DNA of 33,627 bases from Cryptosporangium phraense. GTDB lineage: Bacteria > Actinomycetota > Actinomycetes > Mycobacteriales > Cryptosporangiaceae. Under the pieces are notes generated by a model that saw only the letters and a program-made list of their open reading frames with translations, had not been told where the DNA came from and searched no databases. A program made the translations under genes and the position numbers. Positions 2 through 8,276 of this stretch are shown in pieces. The stretch's first letter is position 1. Each line of letters opens with the position of its first letter. Location of the stretch: positions 1-33,627 of the forward strand of contig NZ_VIRS01000054.1 in assembly GCF_006912135.1 (NCBI RefSeq), in the 5' to 3' direction.

Positions 2-937
2 GATGCGGCACCTCTGGGGCACGCGCAGCGCGGCGGCGCGCAGCTCGGAGCGGCGCAGCACGGCGGCGCGCAGCGCGGTGGGGCGCCGGCGCGCGGGGTC
101 GCGCCCCCGGGCCTGCCCCGGCAGGTCGCACCGGGTGCATCCCGGCCGGCACCAGCAGGCATGCCTCGACCGGCCGCCGCGGGCGGCTACCGGCCAGGAG
201 CCCCAGCCGGCGCCGGAGCACCAGGCCGCCCGGGAACACCGGCCGGCGCCGGAACACCAGGCCGCGCGGGAACACCGGCCGGCGCGGGAACGCCGGGCGG
301 CGCGGGAGCGGTGTCGGCTCAGCGCCCGTGGGGGCCGCCGGGCGGGCGGCCGATCCCCAGCGCCGGAGTGCAAGCCCCCCGGGCCCCTGGAGGAACCCGA
401 CACATCCCCTGGGACCGCCTCCAGTGCCCACCGATCGCCAGCCGAACCGGACGGCGCATCTGGAGCAACATCGTCCTGGTCCTCGTCGTGCTCGGGCTGA
501 TCGACGCGATCGCCCAGACCCCGAGCGTCCGCTCGTTCCTGGTCGGCGGCCCACTGACCCAACCGCCCTGGCTCGGCGGCGCCTTCGACGCCAGCACCCG
601 CCTGACCCGGGCCACCGCCGGGCTACCCGACCCGCTCACCACCTGGGTCACCGCGAACGGCGCGGCCGCCGTCGCCGGGCGCCTGGCCGCGGTCCCGCTG
701 CTGCTGCTGGCCTGCGTCGCGCTGGTCCGCCGCGGCGGCACCGCTTCCTGGGCGATGGCCGCCAAGACCGCCGCGGGCTGGGTCGGCACGCTGGTGGCCG
801 TCCTGCTGGCGGCCCGCTACCTGGCCACCGGTTTCCAGTCACTGCTGTGGGCCGTGTCCGCCCTCAGCTGGTGGCTTGTACTTTTCCTACCCGTATTGGT
901 CGTGCTCACCAAGCGAGCTGCGGGCCCGAATCACTAA
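2..937 (+). CDS. Low-complexity multipass membrane protein (5' truncated by window edge)
   Basis: The frame is open from the first bases of the window, so the true start probably lies upstream; an internal ATG at 161 is possible but sits inside the repetitive region. The first ~140 residues are Ala/Gly/Pro/Gln-rich, with GGAQ-like units followed by GTPAGAGTPG-like units. The C-terminal ~180 residues hold about four hydrophobic segments: NIVLVLVVLGLI, a Leu-rich stretch with LLLLACVALV, a Val/Leu-rich stretch, and a last one near WWLVLFLPVLVVL. This looks like a proline-rich cytoplasmic tail followed by a small integral membrane domain. I do not recognise a family. High GC at third codon positions marks it as native, unlike the next three genes. 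Confidence 0.6.
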   Translation, partial: DAAPLGHAQRGGAQLGAAQHGGAQRGGAPARGVAPPGLPRQVAPGASRPAPAGMPRPAAAGGYRPGAPAGAGAPGRPGTPAGAGTPGRAGTPAGAGTPGGAGAVSAQRPWGPPGGRPIPSAGVQAPRAPGGTRHIPWDRLQCPPIASRTGRRIWSNIVLVLVVLGLIDAIAQTPSVRSFLVGGPLTQPPWLGGAFDASTRLTRATAGLPDPLTTWVTANGAAAVAGRLAAVPLLLLACVALVRRGGTASWAMAAKTAAGWVGTLVAVLLAARYLATGFQSLLWAVSALSWWLVLFLPVLVVLTKRAAGPNH

Positions 938-1081: not shown

Positions 1082-2905
1082 TTGTCGACGCGTAGCTCAT
1101 CCAGCTCCGCGCTCGCTCTGTCGCGCGCGGCGACCGGGGGTGGGCGGGTCGAGTTGATCCTGTTGACCGATTCAGTCGATCCACAATTCATCGTCCTCAT
1201 GGCCAAACAGGTTGGGAGTTCACTCTCCATCGAGTTGCCAACCGCCTCAAGCGCACCCAAGCGACTTGCACAGGTCATCGAGGAAGAGGCAAGGGGGCAA
1301 CTCGGATTACAGATCCGCTTTCTCGGGTTCGTTGAGTTTTCCGTCGAGGCGGACTGCCGCATCGTGGCGGCTGTAGTCCTCACCGACCCCGCTGTGCCCA
1401 AGGCGACAAAGCTCGGTCAAGACCTACGCATCCTCTCGGAAGCCGATATACGCGACGAGCATATTACCGATCTGGCACTCTACGATGCCGCGCGCGAGTG
1501 GTGCATCACCGAGATCGAATCACACACGCTTAACGAGCGTATCAGTAGTGCGGTTGAGTCCTCTATCGCCTATTTGAGTCGTAACCTCTCCCACGAGCGC
1601 CCAGACGACGCTCCGCTGGAGAGAGAGACTAGTATCCCTTACAACGGCCTGTGGGGCTGGTCGATGTTGATGGATCAGACCGATGTCGGTGTGTTGTCCA
1701 CCGCTCAGGGCATCCTGGCTTACCGGCATGCTGATCGCCAGCCCAGCGATACTATAGGCAGCGCGGTAGAGTCGCTCGAGCGTCTCCAGAACACTGATGG
1801 CGGTTGGCGGGTACGGCGGGCACTCACTGGCAATCCGAGCGACAAGTCAGTGACAGAGAGCACTTGCTACTGCGTTTGGGCGCTATTGGAGATTGGCCGC
1901 CCTCACACCGATCCAGTAGTTAGTAAGGCCGTTACCTGGCTGCGCGAGCACGTCCAGCAGGATGGTGGCTGGGCCTCCACCGCAGACGGCACCGAGTCGC
2001 ACCTCTATCCAACCGCCCTCGCCGTCCGTGTCCTGGCGCGTTGCGAACACAGTGAGGAACTCGCGCAGGGCCTATGGTGGCTGCGCCAGGCACAGGATCC
2101 AGACTCTGGCGCCTTCTTCGCACCCAAGCGTCCCCAGGGTTGGGATGCCGATGACCGGCGTTTCGCATATACCGCTCATGCTGTGCTGAGCCTCCTCGCC
2201 GCCGGCGTGCCGGAGGACGACGATGTGATCCGATCGGCCTGCGGGTTCTTATCGCTCGAGTTCGACGAGGACGGACCCGAGCCTTGGCCGTCACGGGCGA
2301 CGACCACTCGGATCGACCGAGCCACGGCGTCGAACATGGAATTCAAGCATTTTGCCACCCCTTGGGTGATCGCGGCCTTGATTACGGCTGGCCACGGCGT
2401 CGATGACATGGTTGTCCTCCGCGCAGTCGAGAAGCTTCTCAAACGCCAGCTATCCGATGGCCGTTGGCGCTGCGAACTCGCCGACAACGATCGAACTACG
2501 CTCTGGGCATTACATGATGCCCTCTTCGCACTACGCACGATCCGCGAATCCACCCGCAGCCGCTTGCCGATGATTGCGTTGAGCCGACAACGGGACGATG
2601 AGCGCAAGCGTATATCCGAAGCGCTTACCCGGCTATTGGCGGCTACCGCACCGCAGCCAGCTCCCCAGAACGGCATCGCCTGGCGGCGCTTCCTGTACGG
2701 CTGGCTCGCCGCCCTCACCGTTTTTGTTCTATTGTTACTCCTGGCTCAACTCGGGTTCGACCTATTCGGCCCCGGATCCGCATTGCGCAAGGTTCTCGGG
2801 ACTGTCGGCGCCTTCATACTCGCAGTCGCTACTGCAACCGTCCCTCAAGTCGTCACTGAGGAGCACAAGCGACGCCGCGGCAGGGAGGAACGGCACCAAA
2901 CGTGA
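1082..2905 (+). CDS. QW-repeat (terpene cyclase/prenyltransferase-like) membrane protein, first gene of viperin cassette
   Basis: 607 residues from a TTG start chosen for the strong GGGGGGAAG site just upstream. Residues ~20-120 form an alpha/beta-looking domain; ELPTASSAPKRL followed by IEEEARGQLGL faintly recalls a degenerate Nudix box. Residues ~150-490 are helical repeats with QW-type motifs of the squalene-cyclase/prenyltransferase alpha-toroid: QNTDGGW (236-242), QQDGGW (292-297), QDPDSGAFF (338-346) and QLSDGRW (456-462). A DxDD sequence (DADD, 355-358), the catalytic signature of class II terpene cyclases, precedes an Ala/Leu helix. Two membrane helices follow, ~538-557 and ~571-588, with a basic tail. 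Four TTA leucine codons (76, 390, 477, 552) and low GC set it apart from neighbours. Role unknown: it could be a membrane sensor or effector of the viperin system, or a true cyclase. Confidence 0.8.
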   Translation: MSTRSSSSSALALSRAATGGGRVELILLTDSVDPQFIVLMAKQVGSSLSIELPTASSAPKRLAQVIEEEARGQLGLQIRFLGFVEFSVEADCRIVAAVVLTDPAVPKATKLGQDLRILSEADIRDEHITDLALYDAAREWCITEIESHTLNERISSAVESSIAYLSRNLSHERPDDAPLERETSIPYNGLWGWSMLMDQTDVGVLSTAQGILAYRHADRQPSDTIGSAVESLERLQNTDGGWRVRRALTGNPSDKSVTESTCYCVWALLEIGRPHTDPVVSKAVTWLREHVQQDGGWASTADGTESHLYPTALAVRVLARCEHSEELAQGLWWLRQAQDPDSGAFFAPKRPQGWDADDRRFAYTAHAVLSLLAAGVPEDDDVIRSACGFLSLEFDEDGPEPWPSRATTTRIDRATASNMEFKHFATPWVIAALITAGHGVDDMVVLRAVEKLLKRQLSDGRWRCELADNDRTTLWALHDALFALRTIRESTRSRLPMIALSRQRDDERKRISEALTRLLAATAPQPAPQNGIAWRRFLYGWLAALTVFVLLLLLAQLGFDLFGPGSALRKVLGTVGAFILAVATATVPQVVTEEHKRRRGREERHQT

Positions 2906-2919
2906 GGAGTTGACCGCAC

Positions 2920-3750
2920 ATGCGCGTGCAGTGGAAGACAGCCGTCGATTGGCATCAGCACCTGACCGTAGCGAAGGAGTGTGCAGAAGCTGCCGCTCAA
3001 CGCATCTCTGATGAGTTCGGCCATCGTCATATCACCGGCGAGAAGGGGCCGTACGACGTTCAACTACGCGCCGATTTGGTATCGGAAGACACGATCGTTT
3101 CAGGGATCCATCAGGCATATCCTGACCATCGAATAATTTCCGAAGAGCACACCCTCAAGTGGTTGAATGACGAGCACACATGGTTTGTCGACCCGCTCGA
3201 TGGAACCAATAATTTCGGCTACGGAGTCGCTCACTGCGCAGTTGCGATCACCCTCTTCCACCGCGACGAACCCGTGGTGGCCGTCGTCCATGACCCGGTC
3301 GTCAAACGTCGCTATTACGCGCAGGCTGACGCAAAGCAGGCTCTAAGGCCAGCGCCACTTCGTAGCGAACCCGTACCACTTCGGCGGGCTTCAATCTCCT
3401 ACGTCACGAATTACACGCCAGAGGCCCGACGCTACGGACTTGCGCTCGAACGGCGCCTCCGCGACGAGTGCAAGCGCGTGTTCACGCTCTGGGCACCGTC
3501 TCTCGATCTAGCGCTTATATCCGCAGGTGGTCTCGACGCCATGGTGTGTGTCGACGCGAACTTCCTCGACGTCTGCGCCGGCCTCTTCCTACTCGAGCAG
3601 AACGGTGGCTGCGTGCTCGGCCTCGGTGGAGAACGCCTTCCCCTCACCAAGTCTCTTGCGGACGCTCCAGTATCGTTCGTTGCCGCCCGTGACGGACACC
3701 TGGCTCAAGATCTCTTCCAACATGTTCGGGAAGCGATACACGGCGTATGA
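2920..3750 (+). CDS. Inositol-monophosphatase/CysQ-family phosphatase, second gene of viperin cassette
   Basis: 276 residues, close to the usual IMPase length. The metal-binding signatures are present: the EE pair at 75-76, DPLDGTNNF at 91-99, and a second site with D196, AGG 202-204, D206 and D217 (LDVCAG in place of the usual WDxxAG). The family uses Mg2+ to remove phosphate from inositol phosphates, 3'-phosphoadenosine 5'-phosphate or related small phosphates, in the cytoplasm. Start ATG 2920 has GAGGAG 9 bases upstream, and that site overlaps the stop of the preceding gene. The stop overlaps the viperin start (ATGA at 3747-3750), so the two are probably translationally coupled. Inference: the substrate may be a nucleotide, perhaps a viperin substrate, product or by-product. 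A housekeeping inositol or PAP phosphatase is less likely given the operon. Confidence 0.88.
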   Translation: MRVQWKTAVDWHQHLTVAKECAEAAAQRISDEFGHRHITGEKGPYDVQLRADLVSEDTIVSGIHQAYPDHRIISEEHTLKWLNDEHTWFVDPLDGTNNFGYGVAHCAVAITLFHRDEPVVAVVHDPVVKRRYYAQADAKQALRPAPLRSEPVPLRRASISYVTNYTPEARRYGLALERRLRDECKRVFTLWAPSLDLALISAGGLDAMVCVDANFLDVCAGLFLLEQNGGCVLGLGGERLPLTKSLADAPVSFVAARDGHLAQDLFQHVREAIHGV

Positions 3751-4637
3751 CCTCGTCAGCGCGAAGCTCTAGACTTCCGATTTCGACTGTCAACTTTCAC
3801 GTGTGGCAGCCGTGTAACATGCACTGCCATTTCTGTTTTGCTACTTTTCGTGACGTCCGATCGGACGTTCTGCCCGCTGGGCACCTAGAGCGCTCCGAAG
3901 CCCGAATGGTCATCGCCGCGCTAGGCCGCTACGGGTTCGAGAAGATCACGTTTGCAGGTGGGGAGCCGCTACTTTGCCCGTGGTTACCCGACCTCCTGCG
4001 TGAAGCGAAAGCTCACGGGATGGCCACCTCCATAGTTACCAACGGAAGCCTTCTCGACGAGGAGTATCTGGCGCGTACCCACACCGACCTCGACTGGCTC
4101 GCCCTAAGTATCGATAGCGTGGACCCTACGGTTCTACGCCTCACTGGCCGTCAGACGCGCGGACGCCCGCTATCGGAGGTCGACTACCTCCATCTGTGCG
4201 CGACCGCTGCCTCACTGGGTATCGCCATCAAGATCAATACAGTTGTCACGGCCGCCAATTGGCACGAGGATCTCACTGGTTTTCTCGCTGACGCCCGGCC
4301 ACATCGGTGGAAGGCGATGCGCGTGCTCCCGATGGCGGACCAGAATAGCGGCGCGGTAGAGGCCTTCCTGATTAGCAGCGAGCAGTTCTGGACGTACGTC
4401 GACCGTCACCGGGCGCTGCGATGTCTAGGCATTGACATAGTGGCAGAAGACAACAACGACATGCTCGGCACTTACGTCATGGTCGACCCGGCCGGCCGCT
4501 TCGTTGACAACCTCGACGGTCGGTACCGTTACAGCGCCCCGATCCTCCAGGTGGGAGCTGAGAAGGCGCTCGGCCAGATACGCCTCGACCGCAGTGGCTT
4601 CCTACGCCGCGGAGGCGAATACCAATGGGTCCGCTGA
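3747..4637 (+). CDS. Prokaryotic viperin (pVip), antiviral radical SAM enzyme
   Basis: 296 residues that can be aligned by eye to animal viperin nearly end to end. The radical SAM cluster motif is CNMHCHFC (C23, C27, C30), after the VNFH strand typical of viperin. Next come GGEP (71-74), TNGS (98-101), KIN (162-164), RWK (187-189) and the viperin C-terminal signature FLRRGGEYQW (285-294). The amphipathic membrane helix of animal viperin is absent, as in bacterial forms. Known chemistry: viperins use SAM to convert CTP, and in bacteria also UTP or GTP, to 3'-deoxy-3',4'-didehydro nucleotides that block phage transcription. Where vertebrates have KINFSGGEP this protein has KITFAGGEP, so nucleotide preference may differ. 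Start ATG 3747 overlaps the phosphatase stop. It has a TTA codon at L80, and GC is lower than in hem genes. A role in nucleoside natural-product synthesis is the main alternative. Confidence 0.94.
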   Translation: MTSSARSSRLPISTVNFHVWQPCNMHCHFCFATFRDVRSDVLPAGHLERSEARMVIAALGRYGFEKITFAGGEPLLCPWLPDLLREAKAHGMATSIVTNGSLLDEEYLARTHTDLDWLALSIDSVDPTVLRLTGRQTRGRPLSEVDYLHLCATAASLGIAIKINTVVTAANWHEDLTGFLADARPHRWKAMRVLPMADQNSGAVEAFLISSEQFWTYVDRHRALRCLGIDIVAEDNNDMLGTYVMVDPAGRFVDNLDGRYRYSAPILQVGAEKALGQIRLDRSGFLRRGGEYQWVR

Positions 4638-4644
4638 GCGTCTC

Positions 4645-5703
4645 CTACTGGCGTGCGAGCAGCCCCGCGGCCTCGGTGGCCCAGTACGTCAGCACGAAGT
4701 CGGCCCCGGCCCGCCGGGCCCCGACCAACGTCTCGAGCATGACCTGCTCCCGGTTGATCCACCCGTTGGCCGCCGCCGCCTCGACCATCGCGTACTCACC
4801 CGACACCTGGTACGCCGCCACCGGCACGTCGACCGCGTCCGCGACCTGACGCAGCACGTCGAGGTACGGCAGCGCGGGCTTGACCATGATGATGTCGGCG
4901 CCCTCGGCGATGTCGAGCGCGACCTCGCGCAGCGCCTCGGCCGCGTTCGCCGGGTCCTGCTGGTAGGTCTTGCGGTCGCCCTTGAGCTGCGACTCCACCG
5001 CGTCGCGGAACGGCCCGTAGAACCCGGACGCGTACTTCGCCGCGTAGGCCAGGATCACCGTGTTCGTGTGCCCGGCCGCGTCGAGCGCCGCCCGGACGAC
5101 GCCGACCTGGCCGTCCATCATCCCGGACAGCCCGAGCACGTGCGCACCGGCGTCGGCCTGCGCGACCGCCATCTCGGCGTAGCGCAGCAGCGTCGCGTCG
5201 TTGTCGACCGAGCCGTCGGCGGCCAGGACTCCGCAGTGCCCGTGGTCGGTGAACTCGTCCAGGCAGAGGTCGCTCATCACGACCGTGTCGGCGCCGACCT
5301 CGGCGATCACGTCCGCGATCGCGTCGTTGAGCACCGCGTCGGTGGTGCCGCAGTGGTCGCGCTCGGTCGGCACGCCGAACAGCATGATGCCGCCGACGCC
5401 GGCCGCGACCGACTCGGCCGCGGCCCGGCGAAGCGAGTCCCGCGAGTGCTGGAAAACGCCCGGCAGCGACCGGATCGGCCGCGCCTCCGGGATGCCTTCC
5501 TTGACGAAGAGCGGGAGGACGAGGTCGGCCGGGTTCACCCGGATCTCCGACACGAGCCGACGCATGGCCGGGCTCTGCCGCAGCCGCCGCGGACGAACGC
5601 TCGGGAACCCGCCACCGCCGCCGCTACTGCCCGGGGTCAGCCCGGGGCAGAGCTTCTCGAGTGACGGCGCACCGGCCGTGGCCCGCCGCAACGTCCCGCT
5701 CAT
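4645..5703 (-). CDS. hemB: Delta-aminolevulinic acid dehydratase (porphobilinogen synthase)
   Basis: 352 residues. It condenses two 5-aminolevulinate molecules to porphobilinogen in the cytoplasm, the second common step of haem and cobamide synthesis. The two Schiff-base lysines are visible as AYAAKYAS (K223) and MVKPALPY (K275). The cysteine metal site reads DLCLDEFTDHGHCG (145-158). An unusual Gly-rich stretch near residues 24-33 precedes the conserved barrel. Start ATG 5701-5703 follows an AGGGAGAG site. It is last in the rex-hemACDB operon, 60 bases after hemD, and its stop lies only 7 bases from the convergent viperin stop with no clear terminator between. Confidence 0.97.
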   Translation of the reverse strand: MSGTLRRATAGAPSLEKLCPGLTPGSSGGGGGFPSVRPRRLRQSPAMRRLVSEIRVNPADLVLPLFVKEGIPEARPIRSLPGVFQHSRDSLRRAAAESVAAGVGGIMLFGVPTERDHCGTTDAVLNDAIADVIAEVGADTVVMSDLCLDEFTDHGHCGVLAADGSVDNDATLLRYAEMAVAQADAGAHVLGLSGMMDGQVGVVRAALDAAGHTNTVILAYAAKYASGFYGPFRDAVESQLKGDRKTYQQDPANAAEALREVALDIAEGADIIMVKPALPYLDVLRQVADAVDVPVAAYQVSGEYAMVEAAAANGWINREQVMLETLVGARRAGADFVLTYWATEAAGLLARQ

Positions 5704-5763: not shown

Positions 5764-7338
5764 TCAGCGTGCCAGCCGACCGGCCGTCGGCCCCTGGGCC
5801 TTGGCGCCCCGGCGCGGCTTGGCCGGCAGCGACGCCAGCTTCTCCCGCAGCTCGAGCGCGTACTCGGCCAGCGACTCGACCAGCGACGGCACGTTCGCGG
5901 TCTCCGGCTGCACGTCGACGCGCAGCCCGAGCTCGCGGGCGGTGTCGGCGGTCTTCGGCCCGATGCAGGCCACGACCGTGCGGGCGTGCGGCTTGCCGGC
6001 GATGCCGACCAGGTTCCGCACCGTGGACGACGACGTGAACAGCACGGCGTCGAACCCGCCTGACTTGATCGCGTCCCGGATCGGCGCGGGCGGCGGGGCG
6101 GCCCGAACGGTGCGGTAGGCCGTGACGTCGTCGACCTCCCAGCCGCGCTCGATCAGGCCGGCGGCCAGCGTCTCGGTCGCGATGTCGGCCCGCGGCAGCA
6201 GGATCCGGTCGATCGGGTCGAGCACCTCGTCGTAGGGCGGGAAGTCTGCCAGCAGGCCGTCGCTGGACTGCTCACCGCTGGGCAGCAGCTCGGCCTTGAC
6301 GCCGAACGCCTCCACCGCGGCCGCGGTCGCGTCGCCGACGCAGGCGATCTTGACGCCGGCGAACGCCCGCGCGTCGAGCCCGAACTCGGCGAACTTCTCC
6401 CAGACCGCCTTCACCGCGTTGGTCGAGGTGAAGATGACCCACTCGTACCGGCCGGTGACCAGGCCCTTGATCGCGCGCTCCATCTGGGCCGGCGTCCGGG
6501 GCGGCTCGACGGCGATCGTCGGCACCTCCTCCGGGATCGCGCCCCAGCCGCGGAGCTGGGCGCTCATCGCACCGGCCTGCTCCTTGGTGCGGGGCACCAG
6601 CACCTTCCAGCCGTACAGCGGACGCGACTCCCACCAGGAGAGCTTGTCGCGCAGGCCCACGCCGGCCCCGATCGAGACGACCAGCGTTCCGTAGAGCCCG
6701 ATCGCCGCGTCGACGATGCCGTCCAGCGTCGCCACCGACGTCGACTGGGTGTCGGTGGTGCCGTCGCCGGTGACCAGCACCGTCGCCTGGCCGCTCATCC
6801 CGGCCGAGAGCAGCCCGTCGCGGACGGCCGGCAGGTCACCGGCGTCCAGAGTGAGCGTCAGCGTGCCCGGGACCGCGACCATCGCGTCGAAGTCGAGCGC
6901 GGTGACGTCACGGACCTCGACCGTCGTCCGCAGACCGCCGGCCGGCGCACCGGCGTAGCCGGTGACCCCCTCGGCGAGCGGAACACCGGGAACCACCTCG
7001 AACGGGACCGACGTCCGGGCGACGGCCTGCACCTCGCGGACGATCGACTCCGACGTCAGCGGGTCGCCGGCCACCAGGCGGGCCACCGTGCGTCCGGAGC
7101 GGGCCCCGGAGAGCAGTACCTTCGCGACGTCCCCGGCTGCGCCCTCGGCGACGCTGACCTCGACCGACTCCGGCGCGGAGGCGACCACCGCGGCGAGGAG
7201 CGTGGGCGGCAGCGACCGGTCGTGCAGGATGTGGTCGGCGTCGGCGACGGCCTCGAGCGCACGTCGGGTGAGCAGCCCCGGGTCGCCGGGGCCTGCCCCG
7301 ACGAACGTGATCCGGCCGGTCGTGGAGCGACGGGTCAT
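5764..7338 (-). CDS. hemD: Uroporphyrinogen-III methyltransferase-like / uroporphyrinogen-III synthase fusion
   Basis: 524 residues from the ATG at 7338, which overlaps the hemC stop by four bases (ATGA). A longer open frame continues upstream but only as a shadow of hemC. Residues ~1-245 form a CobA/SUMT-like SAM-binding domain (VGAGPGDPGLLT at 13-24, then VAGDP and VVPGVP), somewhat degenerate in its catalytic part. Residues ~255-505 form the HemD domain, which cyclises hydroxymethylbilane to uroporphyrinogen III (VIFTSTNAV and VLFTSSSTVR segments). The basic C-terminal tail with PAKPRRGAK is low complexity. This two-domain form is usual in actinobacteria; whether the N-terminal half is still an active methyltransferase is uncertain. 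Confidence 0.95.
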   Translation of the reverse strand: MTRRSTTGRITFVGAGPGDPGLLTRRALEAVADADHILHDRSLPPTLLAAVVASAPESVEVSVAEGAAGDVAKVLLSGARSGRTVARLVAGDPLTSESIVREVQAVARTSVPFEVVPGVPLAEGVTGYAGAPAGGLRTTVEVRDVTALDFDAMVAVPGTLTLTLDAGDLPAVRDGLLSAGMSGQATVLVTGDGTTDTQSTSVATLDGIVDAAIGLYGTLVVSIGAGVGLRDKLSWWESRPLYGWKVLVPRTKEQAGAMSAQLRGWGAIPEEVPTIAVEPPRTPAQMERAIKGLVTGRYEWVIFTSTNAVKAVWEKFAEFGLDARAFAGVKIACVGDATAAAVEAFGVKAELLPSGEQSSDGLLADFPPYDEVLDPIDRILLPRADIATETLAAGLIERGWEVDDVTAYRTVRAAPPPAPIRDAIKSGGFDAVLFTSSSTVRNLVGIAGKPHARTVVACIGPKTADTARELGLRVDVQPETANVPSLVESLAEYALELREKLASLPAKPRRGAKAQGPTAGRLAR

Positions 7339-8276
7339 GCGGTTCTCCCCATCAGGGTGTCGGCGCCTGCGGCGAGGAGGTCGGCAGCGAGCTGCCTCCC
7401 GACCGCTCCGGCGTCGGTGTGCAAACTGTCGTACGTAGCGGGGACGGGGATCGTCCGTGCGTCGGTCAGCACGGACGTTCCGTCCAGGGCCGCGACCCGG
7501 GCCCGCAGGGTGAGCTGGTCGGCGTCGATCGAGGCCCAGGCGGCGACCGGGGCACTGCACCCGGCCTCGAGTGCGGCCAGCAGCGCGCGCTCGGCGGTCA
7601 CCTCGGCCCGGGCCGTCGGCGCCTCGATCGCGCCGAGCAGCGCAACCAGTTCGGCGTCGTCGGCGCGGCACTCGACCGCGAGCGCACCCTGGGCCGGCGC
7701 GGGCACCAGGACGTCGGGGTGGAGCGCTTCAGTGATCTCGGTGGCCCGTCCGAGACGGGCCAGGCCGGCGACGGCCAGCACGACCGCGTCCAGCTCACCG
7801 CTGCTGACTTTGTTCATCCTGGTGTCAACGTTCCCGCGAATCGGCACGCAGACCAAATCCGGCCGGGCGATGAGCACCTGCGCGACCCGCCGGGGCGCCC
7901 CGGTGCCCACCCGGGCGCCGGACGGCAGCTTCTCCAGCGTCAGCCCGTCGCGCGAGATCAGCGCGTCGCGGGGGTCGGCCCGGAACGGGACGGCGGCGAT
8001 CGTCAGGCCGTCGGCGGGCGCGGTCGGGAGGTCTTTGTACGAGTGCACGGCGAAGTCGATCTGGTCGGCGAGCAGCGCGTCGCGCAGTGCGGACACGAAC
8101 ACGCCGGTGCCGCCGATCTGGGTCAGCAGCGTGGTGCGGTCGCGGTCGCCCTCGGTGCTGATGTGCACCAGCTCGACCTCGCGCCCGGTGGCCGCGGTGA
8201 GCGTGTCGGCGACGTCACCGGACTGAGCCAGCGCGAGCTTGGAGGCCCGCGTGCCCAGCCGCAGGGGGCGACTCAT
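7335..8276 (-). CDS. hemC: Porphobilinogen deaminase (hydroxymethylbilane synthase)
   Basis: 313 residues. It polymerises four porphobilinogens to hydroxymethylbilane on a covalently held dipyrromethane cofactor. The start LRLGTRASKLALAQ, the segment HSYKDLPT (78-85) and the cofactor-binding cysteine in EAGCSAPVA (C240) are visible. Start ATG 8274-8276 overlaps the hemA stop, and the stop overlaps the hemD start; both are four-base overlaps showing tight translational coupling within the hem operon. Confidence 0.97.
   Translation of the reverse strand: MSRPLRLGTRASKLALAQSGDVADTLTAATGREVELVHISTEGDRDRTTLLTQIGGTGVFVSALRDALLADQIDFAVHSYKDLPTAPADGLTIAAVPFRADPRDALISRDGLTLEKLPSGARVGTGAPRRVAQVLIARPDLVCVPIRGNVDTRMNKVSSGELDAVVLAVAGLARLGRATEITEALHPDVLVPAPAQGALAVECRADDAELVALLGAIEAPTARAEVTAERALLAALEAGCSAPVAAWASIDADQLTLRARVAALDGTSVLTDARTIPVPATYDSLHTDAGAVGRQLAADLLAAGADTLMGRTA

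Follow-up and report, generated by a model that had tools for sequence, protein, structure and literature searches.

In the actinobacterium Cryptosporangium phraense, a prokaryotic viperin gene is found in one cassette with two companion genes, one for a toroid-repeat protein with a membrane tail and one for a phosphatase of the inositol monophosphatase (IMPase) family, and the linkage of these two genes to viperin is well supported. The cassette lies on the plus strand of the window, by which we mean the whole stretch of 33,627 nucleotides that was analyzed (contig NZ_VIRS01000054.1), and its members are called here gene 1 (1082–2905, toroid protein), gene 2 (2920–3750, phosphatase) and gene 3 (3747–4637, viperin). 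Prokaryotic viperins make 3'-deoxy-3',4'-didehydro (ddh) nucleotides and protect against phages, and some of them are linked to nucleotide kinases; their human relative is an antiviral enzyme, and animal viperin is paired with CMPK2. To our knowledge, it is not settled how bacteria keep an enzyme that makes RNA chain terminators under control and avoid harming themselves. The phosphatase and the membrane protein, the head of which resembles a nucleotide-binding domain, would be candidates for the off-switch and the sensor, respectively. Our best explanation, which is tentative and could well prove wrong, is that the trio is a horizontally acquired, extended viperin defense cassette, whose membrane protein binds a nucleotide and, together with the phosphatase, controls the viperin product or its precursors.

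Identity of the viperin and recurrence of its companions

By family scores and motifs, gene 3 (296 amino acids) is a true prokaryotic viperin. It scored 298.3 bits against the family NF038283 ("viperin family antiviral radical SAM protein"), for which the curated cut-off is 180, and matched Radical_SAM of Pfam at 8.8e-18. Three pVip models of PADLOC 2.0.0, described as not kinase-associated, kinase-associated and kinase-fused, matched it at 2.4e-78 to 4.3e-93. The best of these is the kinase fusion, covered only over model positions 180–460; no kinase family was found by Pfam among the three genes and the upstream gene, and the downstream gene was recognized by eye as hemB. The closest PDB chains are 7n7h, a viperin-like enzyme (5e-41), and 6q2p, RSAD2 (1.3e-40). 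The CX3CX2C motif of radical SAM enzymes reads CNMHCHFC, and the alignment with viperins of known structure runs to residue 295, that is, the viperin C-terminal extension is present. An earlier sequence-only reading of this DNA had described three plus-strand genes, separated by 14 bases and then overlapping by 4 bases, that encode a toroid/transmembrane protein, an IMPase-like phosphatase and a viperin homologue. The coordinates and all three assignments held up, and the motifs which it listed for the viperin (CNMHCHFC, GGEP, KIN, RWK and FLRRGGEYQW) are all found in the translation.

Other viperin loci were collected from two sources. In 72,556 plasmid records, viperin was found at E ≤ 1e-20 in 13, and 7 plasmid loci were fetched. 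A scan of genome contigs with two peptide patterns and one genome per species gave 63 viperin loci, which is not a count of all viperins. Among these 70 loci, a tblastn match to gene 1 stands beside viperin in six (L045, L050, L051, L053, L059 and L070) and a match to gene 2 in four (L045, L050, L051 and L053). The full trio is thus found, beyond the window, in two Thermomonospora species (L050, L051), in Streptomyces carminius (L053) and on plasmid pTs485 of the gammaproteobacterium Candidatus Thiodictyon syntrophicum (L045). On pTs485, genes for a prenyltransferase/squalene-oxidase-repeat protein, an inositol monophosphatase and a viperin follow each other in the window order, and the proteins are 33% (toroid), 39% (IMPase) and 44% (viperin) identical to those of the window; gene 1 is interrupted there by an IS630 element. 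The order toroid–phosphatase–viperin is found in the window, on pTs485 and in S. carminius, and the order viperin–toroid–phosphatase in both Thermomonospora species. By title, seven of the 63 genome loci are actinobacterial, and gene 1 is present in five of them and gene 2 in three. Because the arrangement recurs complete at four other loci, and at two more as gene 1 with viperin, it is not due to chance. Confinement of the trio to a single genome, which the sequence-only reading had named as telling against its proposal, was not found, since four further loci hold all three genes.

Both companions are also rare away from viperin. In a census of Actinomycetota, a sample of one phylum in which only the top first-look candidates of each genome were scored (no more than 6, 3 and 8 per genome in the rows listed), viperin (E ≤ 1e-35) was found in 1 of 396 genomes, gene 1 (E ≤ 1e-15) in 1 of 396 (0 of the 395 others) and gene 2 (E ≤ 1e-30) in 1 of 296, in each case only in the genome of the window itself. 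No viperin above the cut-off was seen in three other genomes of the genus or elsewhere in the sample of the order (298 genomes). Each of the two companions was found at a single place in the 72,556 plasmids (gene 1 at E ≤ 1e-8, gene 2 at E ≤ 1e-15), namely the Thiodictyon trio. Of the eight genomes or records that contain the actinobacterial loci and the Thiodictyon locus, six have gene 1 matches (E ≤ 1e-8), all of them at the viperin locus; no relative at this threshold was found in the genomes of L052 and L103. The same eight gave 29 phosphatase matches, of which four, at 2.3e-50 or better (38–53% identity), are all at viperin loci, and the remaining 25 are at 7.8e-26 or weaker. In the genomes and plasmids searched, the matches to gene 1 and the strongest matches to gene 2 are confined to viperin loci, so that gene 1 and this subfamily of phosphatases are, to that depth, companions of viperin.

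The toroid protein

Gene 1 starts with TTG at position 1082 and encodes 607 amino acids. The 144 bases between the upstream stop codon and gene 1 (938–1081, by eye) form a leader, in which a purine-rich GGGGGGAAGA lies directly 5' of the TTG and is a plausible ribosome-binding site (by eye). The protein appears to consist of a Nudix-like N-terminal domain, an alpha-alpha toroid with QW-type repeats and a C-terminal two-helix membrane hairpin, and six homologues align over most of their length. The toroid part (1640–2551), delimited by Pfam and alignment, has repeats of the SQHop/prenyltransferase type, with SQHop_cyclase_C at 1.4e-17 and Prenyltrans at 4.1e-10. DXDD is the conserved acid motif of squalene/hopene cyclases. 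The DADD of the window toroid is not conserved in the five aligned homologues, and the protein scores far below the cyclase cut-offs (49.5 vs. 431 bits for squalene/hopene cyclase), so that a terpene cyclase is rejected for gene 1. Kyte-Doolittle peaks from residues about 537 and 573 predict two membrane-spanning helices, which are followed by a basic C-terminal tail (2690–2854). This hairpin is present in the window, in L050, L051 and L053, and in the Thiodictyon piece.

The N-terminal domain, at residues about 20–150 (about 130 amino acids, 1139–1531), is missing from the sequence-only reading. It is probably a dead Nudix-like domain, as judged from a profile–profile comparison by hhalign. 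An eight-row alignment of this head scored 29.7 over 114 columns, with a probability of 40%, against 13 Nudix proteins of the same genome. The controls gave at most 13.1 for 100 column shuffles, 8.7 for the reversed profile and at most 18.2 for nine other families. When single rows were dropped, the scores ranged from 21.8 to 32.3 and the alignments from 60 to 115 columns. The register places the Nudix helix on the right stretch, where the catalytic Glu pair is missing. REXXEE is the catalytic motif of active Nudix hydrolases. Its EE pair is replaced in all eight rows, by GQ in the window and by NQ, RH, GQ, GT, SA, SA and DQ in the others (register transferred by eye), and an active Nudix hydrolase was rejected for the head on this motif.

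The phosphatase

Gene 2 encodes 276 amino acids and matches Inositol_P of Pfam at 1.4e-39. Its residue equivalences were taken from an alignment with the inositol-1-monophosphatase 6ib7, which we take to be SuhB. In the IMPase family, EE, DPxDGT and the Asp of the WD motif are ligands of the catalytic metals. EE, DPLDGT and this Asp (D217 in the window) are kept in all five trio phosphatases; the W of WD is not conserved. The change is found in the positions which have a role in the substrate pocket of IMPases. Where 6ib7 reads G-S-A-A, all five trio phosphatases have W-A-P-(A/S) (W191-A192-P193 in the window), and 6 of the 11 other phosphatases compared have G-(S/T)-A-A. Position 210, the Glu of FFE in 6ib7, is Cys in 5/5 trio phosphatases and in 0/11 others. 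From the retained metal site together with the changed pocket, gene 2 is predicted to be an active phosphatase with a different substrate.

A housekeeping IMPase is disfavored for gene 2, which is set apart from the five other IMPase-family proteins of its own genome (28–36% identity). It falls below the equivalog cut-offs for HisN (111.7 vs. 275), CysQ (68.7 vs. 229) and IMPase (65.7 vs. 332). In a tree, the five trio phosphatases form one group (92/89), which is present in 93% of bootstrap trees, and their nearest relative (84/96) is a more weakly matching phosphatase of Nonomuraea (L149), which lies away from the viperin of that genome. A W-A-P-type IMPase of the Nonomuraea genome is encoded in L155 (about 7081–7881, minus strand), in a different operon whose other products were recognized by eye as a cupin-like protein and a membrane protein. 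Actinobacterial clusters of a wider family may thus be marked by the W-A-P pocket.

Acquisition and genomic setting

The simplest reading of the genomic setting is that the trio was acquired horizontally as one cassette, because its site is vacant in three congeners and the trio is poor in guanine plus cytosine (GC). The left flank gene (161–937, plus strand) encodes a predicted membrane protein without a Pfam match, and the right flank gene (4645–5703, minus strand) is hemB, for delta-aminolevulinate dehydratase, a name recognized from the sequence with no family search. These two are convergent neighbors in 3/3 congeners, with 22, 40 and 143 bases between the ends of their protein matches; the window has 3.7 kb with the trio between them. 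The upstream protein is 59–64% identical to those of the three congeners over 175–178 amino acids, and hemB is 92–93% identical. The GC content is 60.6% in the trio vs. 71.1% downstream, and at third codon positions 63–70% vs. 95.8% in hemB. The ratios of nonsynonymous to synonymous substitution rates (dN/dS) for L050 vs. L051, one pair with GC-rich codons analyzed by a simple counting method, are 0.53, 0.46 and 0.28 for genes 1, 2 and 3, consistent with maintenance of all three. A phage-borne cassette was also considered and rejected: no viperin at E ≤ 1e-10 was found in 50,697 phage records, and neither the viperin alignment nor the gene 1 alignment gave a match in IMG/VR, where both scans were limited by peptide patterns.

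Viperin phylogeny and partners in other clades

In the viperin tree, the six actinobacterial viperins linked to the toroid gene form one group together with L052 (99/94). The tree holds 61 of 71 rows; the ten left out are L098, L099, L103, L108, L110, L111 and L112 (broken or partial), L047 (short), L104 (same record as L046) and L079 (removed by the filter for length and internal stops). The viperin matches of L103, L108, L110, L111 and L112 are split over two pieces, which points to broken genes or assembly errors. In L059, there are two toroid regions, the first of which consists of two overlapping frames. L059 and L070, labeled Rhodococcus rhodnii and Kibdelosporangium aridum, have much of the neighborhood around viperin in common, and the "Rhodococcus" genome is about 12.4 Mb; a shared mobile element or a mislabeled record would account for this similarity.

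Viperins of other clades have partners of their own. Gene calling missed the viperin in 10 of 71 sequences (L049, L050, L062, L075, L086, L087, L098, L099, L111 and the window), so that the neighbor clusters are undercounts, and for most partner families the name comes from a Pfam scan of a single member (of two members in the thymidylate-kinase-like family). In Cyanobacteria and Poribacteria, the recurring neighbor is a thymidylate/deoxynucleoside-kinase-like protein. Myxococcota viperins neighbor a protein that combines sigma-70 regions with an N-terminal half judged hydrophobic by eye, and a deoxynucleotide monophosphate kinase. In the myxobacterial loci L060, L063, L067, L068, L072, L076, L080 and L082, the gene 5' of viperin always belongs to one family, of which the member scanned (L060) has the sigma-70 regions, and in all of these except L060 a family resembling deoxynucleotide monophosphate kinases (scanned member L063) lies 3' of viperin. 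Bacteroidota viperins neighbor a LytTR response regulator and a histidine kinase, and Chloroflexota viperins a helix-turn-helix (HTH)-TPR protein. A protein family of about 580 amino acids is encoded upstream of viperin in Poribacteria, Planctomycetota and a deltaproteobacterium (L057, L081, L095, L096 and L097), and its member in L096 has no Pfam match at E ≤ 0.01. Another possible partner pair is seen in L052 (8846–10683) and L103 (8851–10676), where the same two genes stand in convergent orientation at the 3' end of viperin; by eye they resemble an AIR-synthase/ThiL-type protein and a membrane-anchored phosphoribosyltransferase.

The window trio matches this scheme, in which viperin is joined by a control protein and an enzyme of the nucleotide type; here the phosphatase takes the place of the enzyme. 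From the comparison, the stable regulatory partner appears to differ from one viperin clade to the next, being a sigma-factor membrane protein, a LytTR two-component pair, an HTH-TPR protein or the toroid protein. Regulation may thus be the evolving part of viperin systems.

Possible functions of the cassette

In the extended defense cassette that we favor, the viperin would convert a ribonucleoside triphosphate to its ddh form, a chain terminator for phage RNA polymerase, as its family membership implies. The gene 1 protein would face the cytoplasm and be held at the membrane by its C-terminal hairpin. The ligand of its dead-Nudix-like head might be a nucleotide, for which the ddh-nucleotide, its precursor or a nucleotide linked to infection are the most likely choices, and with the toroid as a docking surface the protein could sense and gate the system. 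The gene 2 product would be a metal-dependent phosphomonoesterase whose pocket no longer suits inositol phosphates. It most likely strips phosphate from ddh-nucleotides or their precursors, and in this way could keep the toxic product low until infection, or dispose of it afterwards. If so, the trio would represent a form of viperin defense that is under tighter control and has not been described, and the phosphatase, given its altered pocket, may offer a specific means of processing ddh-nucleotides, compounds of antiviral interest.

Several observations weigh against this explanation. First, the Nudix-like call comes from one profile–profile comparison, the probability of which falls from 40% to 5.7% without the Thiodictyon row, and the alignment shrinks to 60–61 columns in four of the eight leave-one-out runs. 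Pfam gave no match for the head, and the profile search against PDB returned mostly designed repeat proteins and no Nudix protein. Second, the companions are not found with every viperin of the group. L052 (Nonomuraea) and L103 (Streptosporangium), two of the seven actinobacterial genome loci, have neither partner, and L059 and L070 have gene 1 only, in a form which lacks the membrane tail. Thus, the phosphatase and the membrane anchor are not needed everywhere. Third, the pocket signature is not exclusive to viperin loci, since the Nonomuraea relative in L149, encoded in an operon without viperin, also carries W-A-P. The change at position 210 is less telling than W-A-P because this position is variable among the 11 other phosphatases, with Glu in only two. 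Fourth, the Thiodictyon viperin, on a long branch, falls outside the actinobacterial viperin group. It is either misplaced as a long branch, or the partners moved between viperin lineages; the latter, if true, would strengthen the case for a functional unit. Finally, there is no sign of a defense island around the trios of L051 and L053, since nine of the ten neighbor proteins have no PADLOC match and the tenth only weak HTH matches. The proposal of the sequence-only reading that both partners are dedicated parts of a viperin system is upheld insofar as they recur as companions in two phyla and two gene orders; its membrane component is not universal.

Among the other explanations, it is possible but unlikely that the phosphatase and gene 1 aid viperin by shaping the nucleotide pool, as a counterpart of the kinases, instead of damping its product, with gene 1 as a passive membrane scaffold. 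The nucleotide-metabolism neighbors of other clades, kinase-like in Cyanobacteria, Poribacteria and Myxococcota, are in line with such a supply role, and so is the complete metal site of the IMPase. However, a phosphomonoesterase removes phosphate, the opposite of what a kinase does, and offers no evident route to the triphosphate; the Nudix-like domain suggests ligand binding over mere scaffolding.

A second alternative, for which we see a rather small chance, takes the ddh-nucleotide as a messenger and viperin as its synthase. Gene 1 would then be a membrane effector that opens or disrupts the membrane upon binding to the Nudix-like head, and gene 2 would erase the signal. If true, viperin would be a second-messenger enzyme besides a polymerase poison. 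The architecture of gene 1, with a nucleotide-binding-like head, a large toroid and a two-helix hairpin, is what such an effector might look like. The phosphatase also accompanies the hairpin form and is absent without the hairpin (five loci with both and two with neither), but seven cases are too few for a firm correlation. Against this, the two hairpin-less homologues would be without an effector, and viperin products block RNA synthesis directly, according to one report (PMC10732462).

A role outside defense, in which the trio makes a diffusible ddh-nucleoside as a secondary metabolite and the phosphatase takes off the last phosphate, is improbable. Most of the hosts are actinomycetes, the free nucleoside could be released by an enzyme of the IMPase type, and viperin is related to nucleoside-antibiotic radical SAM enzymes, with a BlsE match of gene 3 at 5.7e-11. 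However, gene 3 passes the viperin equivalog cut-off and not that of BlsE, and the cassette consists of only three genes and lacks a transporter, a resistance gene and any further tailoring gene, between flanks that adjoin in congeners. Linkage to a nucleoside-antibiotic cluster in relatives had been raised by the sequence-only reading as a point that would speak against defense. The ten neighbor proteins, which are part of the called neighbors at L051 and L053, are of ordinary families (GDSL lipase, mycothiol-type isomerase, pirin, two regulators, sodium:solute symporter, universal stress protein, ChaB and solute-binding proteins by Pfam), and at these two loci neither a biosynthetic cluster nor a defense island was seen among them. 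That genes 1 and 2 stand beside viperin by chance is strongly disfavored and barely credible: same-clade viperins without one or both partners (L052, L103, L059 and L070) would allow it, but there are five full-trio loci (two of the same genus), spread over two phyla and with two gene orders, genes 1 and 2 are rare elsewhere, and the trio is present as a unit at a site vacant in congeners.

Comparison with known systems

The extended defense cassette can be set beside several known systems. The sequence-only reading did not recall this trio as described, and no open-access paper was found on a viperin–phosphatase pairing, or with both "viperin" and "inositol monophosphatase"; mention in the founding prokaryotic-viperin papers or in supplements is possible. 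As far as could be searched, the linkage of viperin, toroid protein and phosphatase is unreported. Also new are the putative Nudix-like head of gene 1 and a phosphatase with an invariant Trp-Ala-Pro and Cys in the pocket.

Squalene-hopene cyclases and other SQHop-type toroids share toroid repeats with QW motifs with gene 1, which differs by its Nudix-like head, its membrane tail, the lack of a conserved DXDD-like motif and scores far below the cut-offs. Likewise, gene 2 shares the metal-site residues and the overall family with the IMPase superfamily (SuhB, HisN and CysQ), and differs by W-A-P, C210 and its sub-cut-off equivalog scores. For the logic of gene 1, there is a precedent in NUDT9-H of TRPM2, a non-catalytic Nudix domain on a membrane protein that senses a nucleotide derivative; TRPM2 is an unrelated channel, and no homology is claimed.

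Prokaryotic viperins (pVip) were reportedly the subject of Bernheim et al. in 2021. Gene 3 is like them in scoring above the family cut-off and in having the CX3CX2C and viperin motifs, whereas genes 1 and 2 match nothing in PADLOC 2.0.0 at E ≤ 1, where pVip is represented. In the available parts of two reports, viperins occur with HicA or RelE partners (PMC10865869) and with a TPR protein partner (PMC12988326). These are lineage-specific partners, as in the trio, but they belong to other families, and the same parts of the two reports mention no phosphatase. The cyanobacterial and myxobacterial kinase-linked viperins resemble the trio in that a nucleotide-type enzyme adjoins viperin; there it is a kinase, whereas the trio has a phosphatase together with a membrane toroid protein.

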